Of a DNA stretch of 64,000 nucleotides, positions 35,600-43,188 are shown in pieces. The first letter of the stretch is position 1, and every line of letters begins with the position of its first letter. The notes beneath the pieces were generated by a model, which saw only the letters and a list, made by a program, of their open reading frames with translations, did not search any database and was not told the origin of the DNA. The position numbers and the translations under genes were made by a program. The DNA comes from Streptomyces durmitorensis (GTDB lineage: Bacteria; Actinomycetota; Actinomycetes; Streptomycetales; Streptomycetaceae), in assembly GCF_023498005.1 (NCBI RefSeq), contig NZ_CP097289.1:2728001-2792000 (forward strand), given 5' to 3'.

Positions 35600-35647
35600 C
35601 CCTCTAGAGGACCGTCGGCCGCACCCTCTAGAGGACCGCCGGCACCG
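35600..35647 (-). repeat. 24-bp tandem duplication across the citrate synthase stop codon
   Basis: Two copies starting at 35600 and 35624 share CCCTCTAGAGGACCG, itself containing the palindrome CTCTAGAG. The copy at 35624 holds the stop codon of the citrate synthase gene; the second copy gives another TAG in the same frame eight codons later. Confidence 0.85.
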
Positions 35648-36803
35648 CTTGTGGCGCCGCCTCCCCCACATACCGCGCCGCAGGGCGAATGATCTTCGAG
35701 TCCTCCGCCTGCTCAAGGACGTTCGCGCCCCAGCCCACCACCCGCGCCGCGGCAAACGTAGGCGTGAACATCTCGCGCGGCAGGCCGCACAGTTCCATGA
35801 CGACTCCCGCGTAGAACTCCACGTTGGTGTGCAGCTCGCGGCCCGGTTTCAGTTCGGCGAGGATCGTCTCGACCTGGCGTTCGACCTCCACCGCGAACTC
35901 CACCATCCGGCCGCCGAATTCCTGCGCGATGCCCCGCAGCATGCGCGAACGCGGGTCCTCCGTGCGGTAGACGGGGTGGCCGAAGCCCATGATGCGGTCC
36001 CCCGCGAGGACCCGCTCGCGGATCCAGCCGTCGATGCGGTCGGGCGTACCGATGGCATCGAGCGTGTCGAGCGCGCGGCTCGGCGCCCCGCCGTGCAGCG
36101 GGCCCGACAGCGCCCCCACGGCACCCACCAGACAGGCCGCGACATCCGCACCGGTCGAGGTGATCACACGAGCCGTGAACGTCGACGCGTTGAAGCCGTG
36201 ATCAATGGTTGAGATCAAGTACTGCTCGATCGCCCGCGCACGCTCGGGTTCCGGCTCCGAACCCGTCAGCATGTAGAGGTAGTTGGCCGCGTACGACAAG
36301 TCGTCGCGCGGCTCCACGGGGTCGAGCCCCTGCCCCAGGCGGTACAGCGCCGTGAGCAGCGTCGGCACCACGGCGGACGCGGCGAGCGCATCGGCGCGAC
36401 GCTGGTCGCCGTCGATGTCGTAGACCGGACGGAAGCCCTTCGCCGCACCGAAGAGCGACAGCGCCGTACGCAGTCCGGACAGCGGCCCCGACAGGGCGCT
36501 GGCGCGGGCTATGGCGGGCAGCGCGGCGCGCACCTCGTCGGGCAGCCTGCGCAGGGGCGCGGTCCGCGCGGCGAAGGCGGACCGCTGCTCGGCGTCCGGC
36601 AGCGCGCCGTGGAACATCAGGTGCCAGACGTCCTCGAAGCTGCGGGTCTGCGCGAGCTCGACGGCCGAGTACTGGCGGTAGTGGTAGAAGCCCTCATATC
36701 CCCTGACGTCTCCGAGCCGGGTCTCGGTCACGACGACGCCCGCGAGCCCGCGGGGGACCTCCACGGGGGCGGTGGGGGCGGTGGTGGAGCCATTGATCGG
36801 CAT
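35628..36803 (-). CDS. Citrate synthase family protein (citrate synthase 2 type)
   Basis: 391 residues from MPINGSTTAP, with GAGGAAG upstream. Condenses acetyl-CoA with oxaloacetate (or propionyl-CoA in 2-methylcitrate synthases). Key residues: His202 (IDHGFNASTF), His237 (GPLHGG) and His276 (GFGHPVYRTEDPR). At the place of the catalytic Asp the sequence reads NVEFYAG (Glu329) instead of the usual NVDFYSG. The main Streptomyces citrate synthase is presumably elsewhere, so this is a secondary enzyme. It is divergent from an HTH-bearing homolog, with an inverted repeat between. Confidence 0.9.
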   Translation of the reverse strand: MPINGSTTAPTAPVEVPRGLAGVVVTETRLGDVRGYEGFYHYRQYSAVELAQTRSFEDVWHLMFHGALPDAEQRSAFAARTAPLRRLPDEVRAALPAIARASALSGPLSGLRTALSLFGAAKGFRPVYDIDGDQRRADALAASAVVPTLLTALYRLGQGLDPVEPRDDLSYAANYLYMLTGSEPEPERARAIEQYLISTIDHGFNASTFTARVITSTGADVAACLVGAVGALSGPLHGGAPSRALDTLDAIGTPDRIDGWIRERVLAGDRIMGFGHPVYRTEDPRSRMLRGIAQEFGGRMVEFAVEVERQVETILAELKPGRELHTNVEFYAGVVMELCGLPREMFTPTFAAARVVGWGANVLEQAEDSKIIRPAARYVGEAAPQAVPAVL

Positions 36804-36886
36804 GGTCTTCCTCGACTCTCTCGACTCTCTCGAGCCTTCCTCCCTGGACTTGATTCGACTGTCCATGCTTGACTGAACCCCTGTCA

Positions 36887-36905
36887 ATATTGATTGGATC
36901 AATAT
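36887..36905. promoter_or_regulatory. AT-rich inverted repeat between two citrate synthase genes
   Basis: ATATTGAT-TGG-ATCAATAT: perfect 8-bp arms around 3 nt, in a genome of about 70% GC. It lies 84 bp upstream of the minus-strand citrate synthase start and 27 bp upstream of the HTH-citrate-synthase start. Its placement suits repression of both. The HTH protein itself is the obvious candidate to bind it (inference). Confidence 0.7.
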
Positions 36906-36931
36906 CGGACGGAATGGATACGGTGATGCCC

Positions 36932-38194
36932 ATGACGGATCAAGAGGCCACGCCCAAAGAAGGCCGGCGCCTGAGCACCCGGGAAGCGGCCGAACTGCTC
37001 GGCGTGAAGCCGGAGACCGTGTACGCCTACGTGAGCCGCGGCCAGCTCAGCAGCCGCCGCGGCCCCGGCTCCCGGGGCAGCACCTTCGACGCCAAGGAGG
37101 TCGAGTCGCTCGCCCGCAAGAACCGCCGGGAACCCGCGGCCACCTCCGCGAGCAGCGAGCTCTCCGTCCGCACCCGCATCACACTCATCGACAAGGACCG
37201 CTACTACTACCGCGGCGTGGACGCGACGGACCTGTCCCTGGCGCACTCCTACGAAGAGGTCGCCGAGTGGCTGTGGACCGGCGTCATGCGCCCCGGAATC
37301 CGCTTCACCGCCCCCAAGGAGACCGCTGACGCCGCACGCCGCGCCGTCAGCGCGCTGCCCGAGCACAGCGGCCCGACCGACCGCCTGCGCGTGGCCGCCA
37401 TCTCCGCCGCCGCAGCCGACCCGCTCCGCTTCGACCTCTCCGAAGAAGCCGTCATCGGCACCGCGCGCACCCTCATCCCCACCCTCGTCACAGCGCTGCC
37501 ACCGGTCAGCCGCGCCCACCGGGACGGTGGCCCCCTGGCCCACCAGCTCTGGGCACGGCTGTCCGGGCAGCGGCCCCACGACGCCTCCCTGCACGCCCTG
37601 GACACCGCGCTCGCCCTGCTGGTCGACCACGACCTCGCCGCGTCGACGCTCGCCGTCCGCGTCGCCGCCTCCGCCCGCGCCCACCCGTACGCGGCGGTGT
37701 CGGCCGGCCTCGGCGTCCTGGAGGGCCCCCTGCACGGCGCCGCCAGCGGCCTCGCGCACCGCATGCTCCTGGACGTGCTCGACCGCGGCAGCGCGGCCCC
37801 CGTGGTGGCCGACGAGCTCCGCGCGGGCCGCCGCGTCCCGGGCCTCGGCCACCGGCTCTACCCCGGCGACGACCCGCGCGCGCAGGCCCTGTTCGCCCTC
37901 CTGGAGGTCATCCCCCAGGCCGGCCCCGCCCTGGCCGCCGCCCGCGACGTGGTGGCCACCACGGCCCGCCACACGGACCTGCACGCCAACGTCGACCTGG
38001 CTCTGGCCGTCCTGACCGCCTCGTCCGGGATGCCCGCCGAGGCGGGCGAGACGCTCTTCGCCGTGGCGCGCACGGCCGGCTGGATCGCGCACGCCCTGGA
38101 GGAGTACGGGGAACGGCCGCTGCGCATGCGTCCCAGCGGCCAGTACGTAGGGCTGCGCCCGCCCCAGCCGATGCCCGCGCCCGACGGCGGATGA
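36932..38194 (+). CDS. Citrate-synthase-like protein with N-terminal helix-turn-helix
   Basis: 420 residues. Residues 14-60 form a MerR/excisionase-like HTH (LSTREAAELLGVKPETVYAY then SRGQL...GSTFDAKEVESL). Residues 80-410 are a citrate synthase fold keeping His233 (VDHDLAAST), His268 (GPLHGA), His307 (GLGHRLYPGDDPR) and Asp355 (NVDLAL). The ligand pocket therefore looks intact. Either it is an enzyme that also binds DNA, or a regulator sensing oxaloacetate, citrate or acetyl-CoA. The start at 36932 has GGTGAT at proper spacing; an ATG at 36914 (six codons longer) is possible. Confidence 0.88.
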   Translation: MTDQEATPKEGRRLSTREAAELLGVKPETVYAYVSRGQLSSRRGPGSRGSTFDAKEVESLARKNRREPAATSASSELSVRTRITLIDKDRYYYRGVDATDLSLAHSYEEVAEWLWTGVMRPGIRFTAPKETADAARRAVSALPEHSGPTDRLRVAAISAAAADPLRFDLSEEAVIGTARTLIPTLVTALPPVSRAHRDGGPLAHQLWARLSGQRPHDASLHALDTALALLVDHDLAASTLAVRVAASARAHPYAAVSAGLGVLEGPLHGAASGLAHRMLLDVLDRGSAAPVVADELRAGRRVPGLGHRLYPGDDPRAQALFALLEVIPQAGPALAAARDVVATTARHTDLHANVDLALAVLTASSGMPAEAGETLFAVARTAGWIAHALEEYGERPLRMRPSGQYVGLRPPQPMPAPDGG

Positions 38195-39206: not shown

Positions 39207-40847
39207 ATGAGCCCGACCTCCCCTGCCCGAAGACTCCGCCTCGGCCTGCCGCGGCGCGTCTTCTCGCAGGTGCTGCTCATGCAGCTGGCGATCGCCGCCG
39301 GAGTCGCCGTGCTCGCCACGGGGCTCTTCCTCGCGCCGCTCAGCGATCAGCTGGACGACCAGGCGATGCGCCGCGCGCTCGCCATCGCGCAGACCACGGC
39401 CGCCCAGCCGCACATCGCCGACGACCTGCGCTCCTCGAAGGCAACGGTCGACGGGCCCGTGCAGGCGGAAGCGGAACGGATCCGGCGTGCCAGCGGCGCC
39501 GAGTACGTCGTGATCATGAACAAGGACGGCGTTCGCTGGTCGCACACCGACCACGACGAGATCGGCCGGGTCGTCTCGACCGACCCCAGCGACGCGCTCG
39601 CCGGGGACGAGGTCATGGAGATCGACGACGGCACTCTGGGCCGCTCGGCCCGCGGCAAGGTGCCGCTGCGGGACATCGACGGGGACATCGTGGGCGCCGT
39701 CTCCGTGGGCATCGAGTACGACAGCGTCCGCGCTCGGCTGATCCACGCGATCCCCGGGCTCTTCGCGTACGCGGGCGGGGCGCTCGCCGTCGGCGCCCTC
39801 GCCGCCTATCTGATCTCGCGCAGGGTGCAGCGGCAGACGCGTGACCTGGCCTTCTCCGATATCTCGGCGCTCCTTGCGGAACGCGAGGCCATGCTGCACA
39901 GCATCCGTGAGGGTGTCGTCGCACTGGATCGCGCGGGCCGCATCCGCCTCCTCAACGACGAGGCCCAGCGCCTCCTCAGCCTCGGGACCGAGGTGATCGG
40001 GCAACCGCTCGACACCGCGCTCGGCCCGGGCCGTACGACCGACGTGCTCGCCGGACGGGTCACGGGCACCGACCTGCTGACCGTCCGCGGCCAGCGCGTC
40101 CTGGTCGCCAACCGCATGCCCACGGACGACGGGGGCGCCGTCGCCACCCTGCGCGACCGCACCGAACTGGAACAGCTGGGCCGCGAGCTGGACTCCACCC
40201 GGGGCCTCATCGACGCCCTGCGCGCCCAGGACCACGAACACGCCAACCGCATGCACACGCTGCTCGGCCTCCTGGAGCTGGAGATGTACGAGGAAGCCGC
40301 GGAGTTCGTCGGCGAGGTGGCGGGAGCACACCGAGTGACCGCCGAGCAGATCACGGAGAAGATCGGCGATCCGCTGCTCGCCGCGCTCCTGGTGGGCAAG
40401 GCCACGGTCGCCGCGGAGCGTGGCGTCGTCCTCGCCGTGCCGCGCGACACCGCACTGCCCGACCGCCTGATCGACCCCGGCGGCCTCGTCACCATCGTCG
40501 GCAACCTGGTCGACAACGCGCTCGACGCGGCGGCGGGAACGCTCCACGCGCGCGTGGAGGTCGATGTGCGCACCGAAGGGCGCGCCGTCGTCCTCCAGGT
40601 GAGCGACACGGGCCCTGGCGTACCGCCCGAGCAACGCGAGACGATCTTCACGGAGGGCTGGTCCACCAAGGAGCCCCCGGCGCACGGCAAGCGCGGCATC
40701 GGGCTCGCCCTGGTCCGCAGGCTCGCCGAGCGGCAGGGAGGCAGCGCGCGGGCCGACGCGTCGCCCGACGGGGGCGCCGAGTTCACCGTCGTCCTGCCCG
40801 AAGCGCTCGCACAGGCCGAACTGGCCCCCACGGAGGAGACACGATGA
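39207..40847 (+). CDS. CitA/DcuS-type sensor histidine kinase
   Basis: 546 residues. TM1 (about 24-42) is followed by an extracytoplasmic PAS-like (sCache) sensor domain of about 130 residues ending VGAVSVGIEYD, then TM2 (about 175-195). A cytosolic PAS with EGVVALDRAGRIRLLNDEA comes next, then the phosphorylation helix DHEHANRMHTLLGLLE and an ATPase with NLVDNALDAA and KRGIGLALVRRLAE. The family senses citrate, fumarate, malate or other carboxylates outside the cell. It overlaps its regulator gene by 4 nt. Confidence 0.92.
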   Translation: MSPTSPARRLRLGLPRRVFSQVLLMQLAIAAGVAVLATGLFLAPLSDQLDDQAMRRALAIAQTTAAQPHIADDLRSSKATVDGPVQAEAERIRRASGAEYVVIMNKDGVRWSHTDHDEIGRVVSTDPSDALAGDEVMEIDDGTLGRSARGKVPLRDIDGDIVGAVSVGIEYDSVRARLIHAIPGLFAYAGGALAVGALAAYLISRRVQRQTRDLAFSDISALLAEREAMLHSIREGVVALDRAGRIRLLNDEAQRLLSLGTEVIGQPLDTALGPGRTTDVLAGRVTGTDLLTVRGQRVLVANRMPTDDGGAVATLRDRTELEQLGRELDSTRGLIDALRAQDHEHANRMHTLLGLLELEMYEEAAEFVGEVAGAHRVTAEQITEKIGDPLLAALLVGKATVAAERGVVLAVPRDTALPDRLIDPGGLVTIVGNLVDNALDAAAGTLHARVEVDVRTEGRAVVLQVSDTGPGVPPEQRETIFTEGWSTKEPPAHGKRGIGLALVRRLAERQGGSARADASPDGGAEFTVVLPEALAQAELAPTEETR

Positions 40848-41524
40848 TCGAGGTGCTCGTCGTGGACGACGACGTCCGGGTCGCGGACGTGAACGCCGCC
40901 TACGTGGCGAAGGTCCCCGGCTTCCGGGTGGCCGCGAAGGCCCACAGCGCCGCCGAGGCCCTGCGGCTCGTCGAGGAACTCCCCGTCGACCTGGTGCTCC
41001 TCGACCACTATCTGCCGGACGAGACGGGTCTCGCGGTGGTCCGTACGTTGCGTGAGCGCGGCCACCAGACCGACGTGATCATGGTGACCGCCGCGCGCGA
41101 CGTCGCCACCGTCCAGGCCGCGATGCGCCACGGCGCCCTGCAGTACCTGGTCAAGCCGTTCTCGTACGCGGGCCTTCGCGCCAAGCTCGACGCGTACGCG
41201 ACCTTGCGCCGCACCCTGGACGGCGGGGGCGAGGCCGAGCAGGCCGAGGTCGACCGGATCTTCGGCGCCCTCTCGGCGACTCCGGCGCCCGAGCTGCCCA
41301 AAGGGCACTCCCCCACCACGGCCGAGCTGGTCCGCAGGGCGCTGATGGGCGCTGAGGGGCCTCTTTCCGCCCAGGAGTTGGCGGACCGCACCCGGCTGAG
41401 CCGCCAGACCGCCCAGCGGTATCTGAAGCTCCTGGAGCGCTCCGGGCGGGTCCGACTCAGCCTGAAGTACGGCGACACGGGCCGCCCGGAGCACCGCTAC
41501 GAGTGGGCGTCCAGCGCCTCCTGA
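40844..41524 (+). CDS. CitB/DcuR-type response regulator
   Basis: 226 residues. The receiver domain has VVDDDVRVADVN, the phosphorylation site LVLLDHYLPDETG and YLVKPFSYAGLRAKL. The C-terminal winged HTH has LSAQELADRTRLSRQTAQRYLKLLERSGRVRLSL. It pairs with the CitA-type kinase through the ATGA overlap. The nearby convergent actP/DUF485 operon is the natural target, since this class usually controls carboxylate uptake (inference). Confidence 0.92.
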   Translation: MIEVLVVDDDVRVADVNAAYVAKVPGFRVAAKAHSAAEALRLVEELPVDLVLLDHYLPDETGLAVVRTLRERGHQTDVIMVTAARDVATVQAAMRHGALQYLVKPFSYAGLRAKLDAYATLRRTLDGGGEAEQAEVDRIFGALSATPAPELPKGHSPTTAELVRRALMGAEGPLSAQELADRTRLSRQTAQRYLKLLERSGRVRLSLKYGDTGRPEHRYEWASSAS

Positions 41525-41550: not shown

Positions 41551-41601
41551 CTGGAGGGCGATCAGACCTGGAGCGCGGTCAGACCTGGAGGGCGGTCAGA
41601 C
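41551..41601. repeat. Three tandem 17-bp repeats across the symporter stop codon
   Basis: Units 41551-41567, 41568-41584 and 41585-41601 (consensus CTGGAGGGCGGTCAGAC) differ at one or two positions. The last one contains the symporter stop codon (41596-41598). It fills most of the gap between the convergent regulator and symporter genes. Confidence 0.88.
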
Positions 41602-43188
41602 GGCTCCCGCCCCGGTGAGCGACCGCACTTCGGTCTCCGCGTGCTTGGCCTCGTCCGCGGACTCCGGCGAGGTCACGGTGCCCAGCCATCCGGCGAGGAA
41701 GCCCAGCGGGATGGAGACGAGCCCCGGGTTCTCCAGCGGGAAGTACTGGAAGTCCATCCCGGGGAAGAGGGAGCTCGGCCCTCCGGAGACCACGGGTGAC
41801 AGCACGACGAGCACCAGGGAGGGCACCAGGCCCCCGTAGACCGACCAGACCGCTCCCCGCGTGGTGAAGTTCCGCCAGAAGAGCGAGTAGAGCAGCACGG
41901 GCAGATTCGCGGACGCGGCGACCGCGAAGGCGAGACCCACCAGGAACGCCACGTTGAGGTCCCGGGCCAGCAGCCCCAGGCCGATCGCGACCACGCCGAT
42001 CCCGGCCGCGGCGAGCCGCGCCACCGCCACCTCACTGCGCGGCTTCGCGTGCTTGCGGCGCAGCGAGGCATACAGGTCGTGGGCCACGGAGGCAGAGGAG
42101 GCGAGCGTAATCCCGGCGACGACGGCCAGGATCGTGGCGAAGGCGATCGCGGCGACGATGGCAAACAGAACCGTTCCTCCTGTGGAGTCCGCGCCGCCGC
42201 CCAGATCGAGCGCGAGGAGCGGAACTGCCGTGTTCCCCGCGGCATTCGATCCCCGTACGGCATCGGAGCCCACGATCGCGGCGGCGCCGAAGCCGAGCAC
42301 GATCGTCATCAGGTAAAAGCTGCCGATGAGACCGATGGACCAGACGACGGAGCGACGGGCGGCGCGCGCGGTCGGCACCGTGTAGAAGCGGGAGAGGATG
42401 TGCGGCAGCCCGGCCGTGCCGAGGACGAGTGCGAGCCCGAGGCTGATGAAGTCCAGGCGCGAGGTCCAGTCCCCGCCGTACTTCAACCCGGGCGCGAGGA
42501 ACTGGCTGCCGTGTCCGCTGCGGTCGGCCGCGGTCCGCAGCAACTGGTCGAAGTCGCCGTGGAAACGCACCAGAACGAGCACGGTCAGCGCGATCGCGCC
42601 GCACATCAGCAGGACCGCCTTGACGATCTGGATCCAGGTGGTGGCCCGCATCCCTCCCAACGACACATAGATGACCATGAGCGCGCCGACGCCGATCACC
42701 GTCCAGGCCTGCGCCGCCCCGCTCGTCCCGCCCAGCAGCAGCGCGACCAGTGAGCCCGCCCCCACCATCTGCGCCACCAGATAGAGAACGGACACGGTCA
42801 CGGAGGAAGTTCCCGCCGCGATGCGCACGGGCCGCTCCTTCATCCGGGCGGCGACGACGTCGGCGAGCGTGAACCGGCCGCAGTTGCGCACCAGTTCGGC
42901 CACCAGGAACAGCACGACCAGCCAGGCGACGAGGAAGCCCACCGAGTAGAGCAGCCCGTCGTACCCGAAGAGCGCGATCAGTCCGGAGATGCCGAGGAAG
43001 GAGGCGGCCGACATGTAGTCGCCTGCGATGGCGAAACCGTTCTCCATGGGCGAGAAGAGCCGCCCGCCCGCGTAGAACTCCTCCGCCGAGCCGTGCCGGT
43101 TGCGGCTCACCCACGTCGTGATGGCGAGCGTGACGGCCACGAACACCCCGAACAGCAGGAGCGCGAGCGTCTGGTGGTCCCCGGTCAT
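41596..43188 (-). CDS. actP: Cation/acetate-type solute:sodium symporter (ActP family)
   Basis: 530 residues with about thirteen transmembrane segments. Features of the ActP/SSS family include SAEEFYAGGRLFSPMENGFAIAGDYMSAASFLGISG and GTAGLPHILSRFYTVPTARAARRSV. It takes up acetate or another short carboxylate with Na+. The ATG overlaps the stop of the DUF485 gene (ATGA), the usual two-gene unit. The convergent CitAB-type system probably regulates it. Confidence 0.93.
   Translation of the reverse strand: MTGDHQTLALLLFGVFVAVTLAITTWVSRNRHGSAEEFYAGGRLFSPMENGFAIAGDYMSAASFLGISGLIALFGYDGLLYSVGFLVAWLVVLFLVAELVRNCGRFTLADVVAARMKERPVRIAAGTSSVTVSVLYLVAQMVGAGSLVALLLGGTSGAAQAWTVIGVGALMVIYVSLGGMRATTWIQIVKAVLLMCGAIALTVLVLVRFHGDFDQLLRTAADRSGHGSQFLAPGLKYGGDWTSRLDFISLGLALVLGTAGLPHILSRFYTVPTARAARRSVVWSIGLIGSFYLMTIVLGFGAAAIVGSDAVRGSNAAGNTAVPLLALDLGGGADSTGGTVLFAIVAAIAFATILAVVAGITLASSASVAHDLYASLRRKHAKPRSEVAVARLAAAGIGVVAIGLGLLARDLNVAFLVGLAFAVAASANLPVLLYSLFWRNFTTRGAVWSVYGGLVPSLVLVVLSPVVSGGPSSLFPGMDFQYFPLENPGLVSIPLGFLAGWLGTVTSPESADEAKHAETEVRSLTGAGAV

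Follow-up and report, generated by a model that had tools for sequence, protein, structure and literature searches.

The window, a 64,000-nucleotide stretch of Streptomyces durmitorensis DNA, contains a divergent gene pair whose products both have a citrate synthase (CS) fold. In one of the two, this fold follows an excisionase/MerR-like helix-turn-helix (HTH) domain; this fusion protein is referred to as HTH-CS, or as REG where genomes are counted. The features of the locus are as follows.

35628–36803, minus strand: companion citrate synthase, 391 amino acids, divergent (PF00285 6.7e-109; NF009005 340.8 bits, cut-off 332).
36850–36874, no strand assigned: CS-side conserved block TTGATTCGACTGTCCATGCTTGACT, from anchored conservation in 118 loci, at a constant distance from the operator.
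36882–36887, minus strand: putative -35 box TTGACA of the CS gene, identified by eye, overlapping the operator.
36883–36902, plus strand: putative tripartite operator GTCAATATTGATTGGATCAA, of the form RTCAAYNTTGAY-N2-8-RTCAA, conserved across phyla.
36887–36905, no strand assigned: perfect inverted repeat ATATTGAT-TGG-ATCAATAT with 8-bp arms, the right part of the operator.
36919–36924, plus strand: putative -10 box TACGGT of the HTH-CS gene, identified by eye and found before the start in many orthologues.
36932–38194, plus strand: HTH-CS, putative one-component regulator, 420 amino acids (Pfam HTH_17 and Citrate_synt).
36971–37123, plus strand: HTH_17 domain, residues 14–64 (Pfam).
37016–37042, plus strand: TVYAYVSRG, residues 29–37, presumed DNA-recognition segment, from conservation.
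37163–38134, plus strand: citrate synthase fold, residues 78–401 (PF00285 8e-61).
37628–37996, plus strand: pocket residues His233 (37628–37630), His268 (37733–37735), His307 (37850–37852), Arg316 and Asp355 (37994–37996), from alignment.

The divergent citrate synthase gene described in an earlier note on this DNA is borne out by its PF00285 match, and the best PDB match of its product is ‘citrate synthase 1’ (2c6x), presumably a Bacillus protein. That note had placed the beginning of the fusion at 36887, which is not a start codon, and its own residue numbers fit a methionine 1 encoded by the ATG at 36932. This ATG is the probable start, because the starts of orthologues align there and the TACGGT box lies 7 nt 5′ of it; the short distance from box to ATG also suggests a leaderless transcript. 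A single open frame encodes the HTH_17 domain (33.4 bits, cut-off 27) and the Citrate_synt domain (206.5 bits). The former has only weak sequence matches in the PDB, namely Gp37 (4j2n, E 0.14), which we take to be a phage excisionase, and AlpA (8c3t, E 0.83). Each position of the TVYAYVSRG segment is identical in 123–124 of 124 Streptomyces orthologues; T29, Y31, Y33, S35, R36, and G37 are invariant in a 51-row alignment, and T29, Y31, and R36 in one of 16 rows. The citrate synthase fold is assigned from the PF00285 score together with the PDB sequence matches, which are citrate synthases (best 2c6x, 3.4e-34). The 9.86-Mb genome holds three other matching CS-type genes, that of the companion included.

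Membership in the MerR family was considered and rejected. The HTH, which reaches the cut-off of HTH_17, falls below those of PF00376 (25.7 of 28.2) and PF13411 (20.3 of 21.6), although some HTH-CS relatives are listed with one or the other. MerR regulators bind operators inside promoters with a 19–20-bp spacer, and this placement was not found here, as the distance from the operator to the -10 box of the HTH-CS gene differs among orthologues. The arrangement is that of an enzyme-fold one-component regulator, in which a DNA-binding domain is fused to an enzyme fold and a putative cognate operator, recognized by comparison, lies beside the regulator's own gene and its likely target.

The fusion had been described as keeping all of the pocket residues of citrate synthase, whose roles are presumably those given in the citrate synthase literature. 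The four residues named, His233, His268, His307, and Asp355, are present when counted from the ATG at 36932, as are Arg316, Arg380, and Arg400, but the Asn of the ‘NAST’ motif is Ala236. The four and Arg316 and Arg380 are identical in all 124 aligned Streptomyces orthologues, and Arg400 in 123, one being unreadable at this position. Ala236 is likewise found in 124 of 124, while among 42 distant members of the family the position is Asn in 16 and A, T, P, or S in 26. The pocket is therefore, as judged by alignment, nearly but not wholly that of an enzyme.

Catalysis by HTH-CS appears possible, because the catalytic residues are intact in the window member and in the 124 Streptomyces orthologues. 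Some proteins, such as PutA, are both enzyme and repressor, and HTH-CS might similarly be a trigger enzyme, one that catalyzes the synthesis of citrate (or a related product) and also regulates by binding DNA. The invariance of the pocket residues favors such a dual role, as does Asp355, which HTH-CS keeps where the companion has Glu as the catalytic residue. Its scores, however, lie below the cut-offs of all NCBIfam citrate synthase models listed (TIGR01800, 158.9 vs. 421.3; NF009005, 152.2 vs. 332), the NAST Asn is replaced as described above, and between one and three of the four catalytic residues are missing from 5 of the 42 distant members (L382, L385, L393, L396, and L397; L399, only part of which lies in the sequence examined, was left outside this count). 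In addition, Caulobacter CitC, encoded beside the active CitB, fails to complement an Escherichia coli gltA mutant according to the available part of the report (PMC7083601), CitC being only a candidate HTH-CS protein. A dual role thus seems doubtful, albeit worth keeping in view. That HTH-CS is an ordinary citrate synthase isozyme whose HTH is vestigial or structural is very improbable. The intact pocket and the database name ‘citrate synthase’ agree with this explanation, and the C-terminal CS core is as well conserved as the HTH (residues 13–62), with mean identities to the window protein of 0.846 and 0.848 among Streptomyces orthologues; yet a vestigial HTH should drift, and this one is far steadier than the linker (0.47) or the N-terminal CS part (0.68). 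Furthermore, the operator accompanies the gene across genomes, and the site is conserved in other phyla, as described below.

The perfect inverted repeat reported between the two genes was found at 36887–36905 and belongs to the larger site GTCAATATTGATTGGATCAA at 36883–36902. In the form ATATTGATNNNATCAATAT, the repeat is the only match at three or fewer mismatches in the 9.86-Mb genome. A chance repeat was ruled out by this uniqueness and by conservation across loci. The earlier note had made its regulator reading depend on conservation of the repeat at orthologous loci, and the part of it that concerns a regulator with its operator survives this test, since TTGATNNNATCAA (≤1 mismatch) was found upstream in 119 of 122 Streptomyces loci having both genes and in none of the 122 coding control stretches. 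These loci are the ones, out of 127 with an HTH-CS gene, that show a companion, defined as a CS match of ≥60% identity in the stretch, whole or in part (L108 has only a CS piece, and in L009 the CS gene is on the same strand); duplicates of the window's own locus and of G032, G087, and G095, as well as L134–L137, were dropped beforehand. One of the five loci with no companion in view, L047, has the repeat, with 1.5 kb visible there. The arms of the repeat covary in places, e.g., AACATTGAT-CTA-ATCAATGTT in L023.

When 118 loci were anchored on the repeat, conservation was seen to extend in a fixed register toward the CS gene (TTGATT, GACTGTCCA, TTGACT, TGTCAA) and to drop to background toward the HTH-CS gene, from which the site appears to be wired to the CS side. 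The conserved block at 36850–36874 probably represents the CS promoter together with extra half-sites (TTGATT, TTGACT). As a separate observation, TTGATT and TTGACT form direct repeats ~20 bp apart that run from the operator into the CS side and are perhaps additional binding sites. Autoregulation is less well supported than control of the CS gene, because the distance from the operator to the HTH-CS -10 box varies. The proposal that the protein governs both genes is supported for the CS gene, given the constant spacing and the absence of the site in G027, G013, G107, and G110 (see below), with L047 as an exception, and less so for its own gene. In G032, following a rearrangement, each of the two genes has its own copy of the repeat. 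In G012 (L152 and L151), the companion CS is split, apparently by chromosomal rearrangement, its N-terminal part lying by the operator and the rest ~4.5 Mb away.

Co-conservation of the fusion and the repeat, suggested earlier as a check, was found in whole genomes as well. Among 150 Streptomyces genomes, 93 contain both REG and the companion CS, 4 REG only (one of these, G102, being a fragmented assembly), 1 CS only, and 52 neither. REG+ and REG- status was assigned by E-values, whereby a fragment in G144 was taken as REG- and genes split or cut at contig ends in G102 and G112 as REG+. The exact repeat ATTGATNNNATCAAT occurs in 58 of 97 REG+ and 0 of 53 REG- genomes (reversed control, 1 of 150), and the tripartite pattern TCAAYNTTGAYN2-8RTCAA in 89 of 97 and 3 of 53, respectively (reversed control, 7 of 150); Fisher values for this co-occurrence overstate it, as the genomes are related and shared ancestry is ignored. 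The pattern is missing from eight REG+ genomes and occurs somewhere in the REG- genomes G025, G089, and G096. In G027, which has the CS gene and no REG, the site is absent before the CS gene, and the three genomes with REG and no companion, G013, G107, and G110, have no site at REG and one copy elsewhere. A repeat copy in G001:C208, which has a different spacer and lies between aconitase-like and GntR-type genes (by eye), was rejected as a further target and is probably the site of another regulator.

These distributions also bear on whether the repeat is the site of a different regulator such as MtrA, of which the HTH-CS gene would be merely a target. In Streptomyces coelicolor, MtrA bound a SCO5831-SCO5832 intergenic probe, and its printed site resembles the CS-side block at 36850–36865 in 13 of 16 bases, in the part of the study available (PMC12323332). 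The operator itself, however, departs from the consensus that the study prints for MtrA, the exact repeat is missing from 53 of 53 REG- genomes, the site is missing before the CS gene of the REG-less G027, and copies of it accompany HTH-CS genes in other phyla. This explanation of the repeat is accordingly most unlikely, while MtrA may act on the block next to the operator.

The single copies in G013, G107, and G110 lie upstream of a class III CoA-transferase gene (assigned by Pfam CoA_transf_3 for two of the three), beginning 30 nt ahead of its start codon; this gene adjoins a subtilisin-type protease-like gene (by eye). The site (≤1 mismatch) precedes CoA-transferase orthologues of ≥70% identity in 24 of 35 REG+ and 0 of 14 REG- genomes, a comparison whose Fisher value overlooks the shared ancestry of the genomes and which omits genes in pieces (G101, G075, G112, G019) and matches of ≤42%; it precedes 0 of 20 and 0 of 23 homologues below 70% identity. 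Two REG- genomes (G022, G067) show a two-mismatch likeness before the gene. The window's own genome has the CoA-transferase gene (73% identity) with no site before it and is one of the 11 of 35 REG+ genomes in which the orthologue is without the site. The CoA-transferase gene is therefore a candidate second target in many Streptomyces, the window genome excepted.

HTH-CS proteins were found in Actinomycetota, Pseudomonadota, and Deinococcota. The combination of HTH_17 and Citrate_synt is listed in Streptomyces, Actinomadura, Nonomuraea, Acidimicrobiales, Polyangiaceae, Caulobacteraceae, Bryobacteraceae, Burkholderia, and others; HTH_17 is carried by all of the best 120 matches listed, and in a scan of species genomes at least 591 stretches with the HTH signature also encode a relative. 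A scan of genome contigs gave at least 80 loci, nearly all from Streptomyces. A tree of 47 sequences is divided by a branch with 100/99 support into 34 HTH-CS domains and 13 CS enzymes. A recent duplication of the neighboring CS gene was rejected as the origin of HTH-CS, as the sampled HTH-CS domains all fall on one side of this branch. One Streptomyces genome has an additional HTH-CS paralogue (L137, G003:C22), which is 35% identical and has lost two pocket His residues; no CS match was found within its 4.3-kb stretch.

The same operator accompanies the distant members. In 42 distant loci, which were picked by hand from the listings and include pairs from one genus, the core TCAAYNTTGA occurs within 310 nt upstream of 35 of the HTH-CS genes (local shuffle expectation, 0.06), and the tripartite form RTCAAYNTTGAY-N2-8-RTCAA precedes 33 of 42 (shuffle expectation, 0.000; in-gene control, 0 of 42), so that the idea of a regulator with its operator extends to other phyla. 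The 342 kb of these loci, read on both strands, contain 41 core sites; 38 of them lie upstream of the HTH-CS gene, and the remaining three at the heads of the upstream genes or operons in Burkholderia and Caballeronia and beside the CS start in L401. The site is absent from the distant loci L380, L382, L396, and L397. The site was found in 22 of 24 genomes or records, and all but one of its 26 matches (25) lie at the HTH-CS locus; the reversed control gave none.

The genes beside HTH-CS recur in kind, although they are not always CS genes. Eighteen of 21 plasmid stretches are annotated (L378–L380 are not), and 16 of these 18 have a divergent neighbor: CS in Ensifer, Agrobacterium, and Chelatococcus; ‘pyruvate carboxyltransferase’ in two Deinococcus; a CoA-transferase in Azospirillum and Ewingella, 41 and 38% identical to the Streptomyces CoA-transferase; 2-hydroxyacid dehydrogenase or transport genes in Comamonas (two), Paraburkholderia, and Thioclava; and, in others, DUF2332 (two), a Rieske dioxygenase, a porin, or a cupin/aldolase operon. 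The plasmid HTH-CS genes of Burkholderia and Caballeronia follow genes on the same strand. Some 29 non-Streptomyces loci had a match spanning the HTH, and 20 were taken with their flanks; in these further actinobacterial loci, the upstream gene is a CS in 15 (with a broken frame in L403 and not directly adjacent in L401), an HMGL-type synthase in 3, and another gene in 2. HTH-CS genes adjoining HMGL-type (homocitrate/isopropylmalate synthase-like) genes were seen in L135, L398, L399, L417, L381, and L395, which belong to Actinomycetota and Deinococcota. A strictly citrate-specific role was dropped because the partner gene is not always a CS. All four pocket residues are kept in 16 of 16 proteins encoded beside an intact adjacent CS gene, in 2 of 2 beside a CoA-transferase gene, in 5 of 6 beside an HMGL-type synthase gene (L399 being incomplete), and at other loci beside 2-hydroxyacid or DUF2332 genes. 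The five members that lack catalytic residues adjoin Rieske, transport, or aldolase operons, and loss near such operons fits a role in sensing rather than catalysis.

The reading preferred here, with high confidence, is that HTH-CS is a one-component regulator whose HTH binds the operator and whose CS fold is a dimerizing sensor, and that it controls the divergent CS gene. The N-terminal HTH would bind the putative operator at 36883–36902, with two HTHs of a CS-type dimer on the inverted TCAA/TTGA core and a further subunit contacting the third half-site. The protein would thereby control the CS gene, whose putative -35 box overlaps the operator, and probably also its own leaderless promoter; in many Streptomyces, the distant class III CoA-transferase gene would be controlled as well. 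The partner genes point to an acyl-CoA or to a 2-oxo or 2-hydroxy acid, oxaloacetate for example, as the likely signal. In citrate synthases the fold closes on bound oxaloacetate, and such a closure on a ligand could alter the spacing of the two HTHs and so release or reposition the protein. Repression relieved by the ligand is the favored sign of control, as suggested by the overlap of the operator with the putative CS -35 box; ligand, allostery, and dimerization are, like DNA binding, predictions of this model.

On a broader scale, HTH-CS probably represents an unrecognized family of regulators, widespread and annotated as citrate synthases in at least three phyla, with one operator code and a single fusion origin, in which the pocket and closing of the CS fold would sense 2-oxo or 2-hydroxy acids or acyl-CoAs and some branches would have been retuned to other ligands after losing catalysis. 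If so, regulators stand behind many of the database entries called citrate synthase, with consequences for metabolic models and annotation, and a TCA-cycle enzyme fold becomes one more sensor domain of bacterial regulators. Because the operator is short and shared, DNA binding could be tested straight away in many species, and such proteins could yield biosensors for oxaloacetate-like metabolites.

No description of a characterized HTH-CS regulator was found in searches of the open-access PMC literature, outside of which most subscription papers lie. Several regulators are known to be derived from enzymes, including MocR/GabR, NrtR, PutA, BirA, and NadR, which similarly join a DNA-binding domain to a metabolic enzyme fold as sensor but employ other folds; no member with a citrate synthase fold was found among such regulators in the same open-access literature. 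In the citA-citR pair of Bacillus subtilis, the LysR-type CitR is encoded beside a minor citrate synthase. The locus resembles this pair in that a regulator gene and a citrate synthase gene face away from each other, and in the best PDB match of the companion, 2c6x; it differs in that the regulator itself has the citrate synthase fold. CcpC and CcpE are of the LysR type. They likewise couple a TCA metabolite to transcription, through a LysR effector domain rather than a CS fold, and CcpE is described as citrate-sensing in the available part of its report (PMC11315280).

Caulobacter CitA, which is 65% identical to E. coli GltA, is a citrate synthase with a regulatory role independent of catalysis, and in this non-catalytic role it parallels the proposed HTH-CS; an E. 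coli gltA mutant is complemented by CitB but not by CitC, the paralogue at the next locus tag (PMC7083601, as far as available, in whose main text ‘helix-turn-helix’ does not appear). The S. coelicolor genes SCO5831 and SCO5832 (citA3/citA4), with the MtrA site between them, are probably orthologous to the window pair, the two being likened by description only. Both are called putative citrate synthases, and the accessible part of that study differs from the present reading in describing no HTH or regulatory role for either (PMC12323332).

Close to the CS pair, a sensor kinase with sCache_3_2, PAS, and SPOB_a domains and a response regulator are encoded at 39207–41524 on the plus strand. This two-component system presumably resembles those of the CitA/DcuS type. 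It is adjoined at 41596–43188, on the minus strand, by a Sodium:solute symporter (SSF) gene whose product is possibly an organic-acid carrier.
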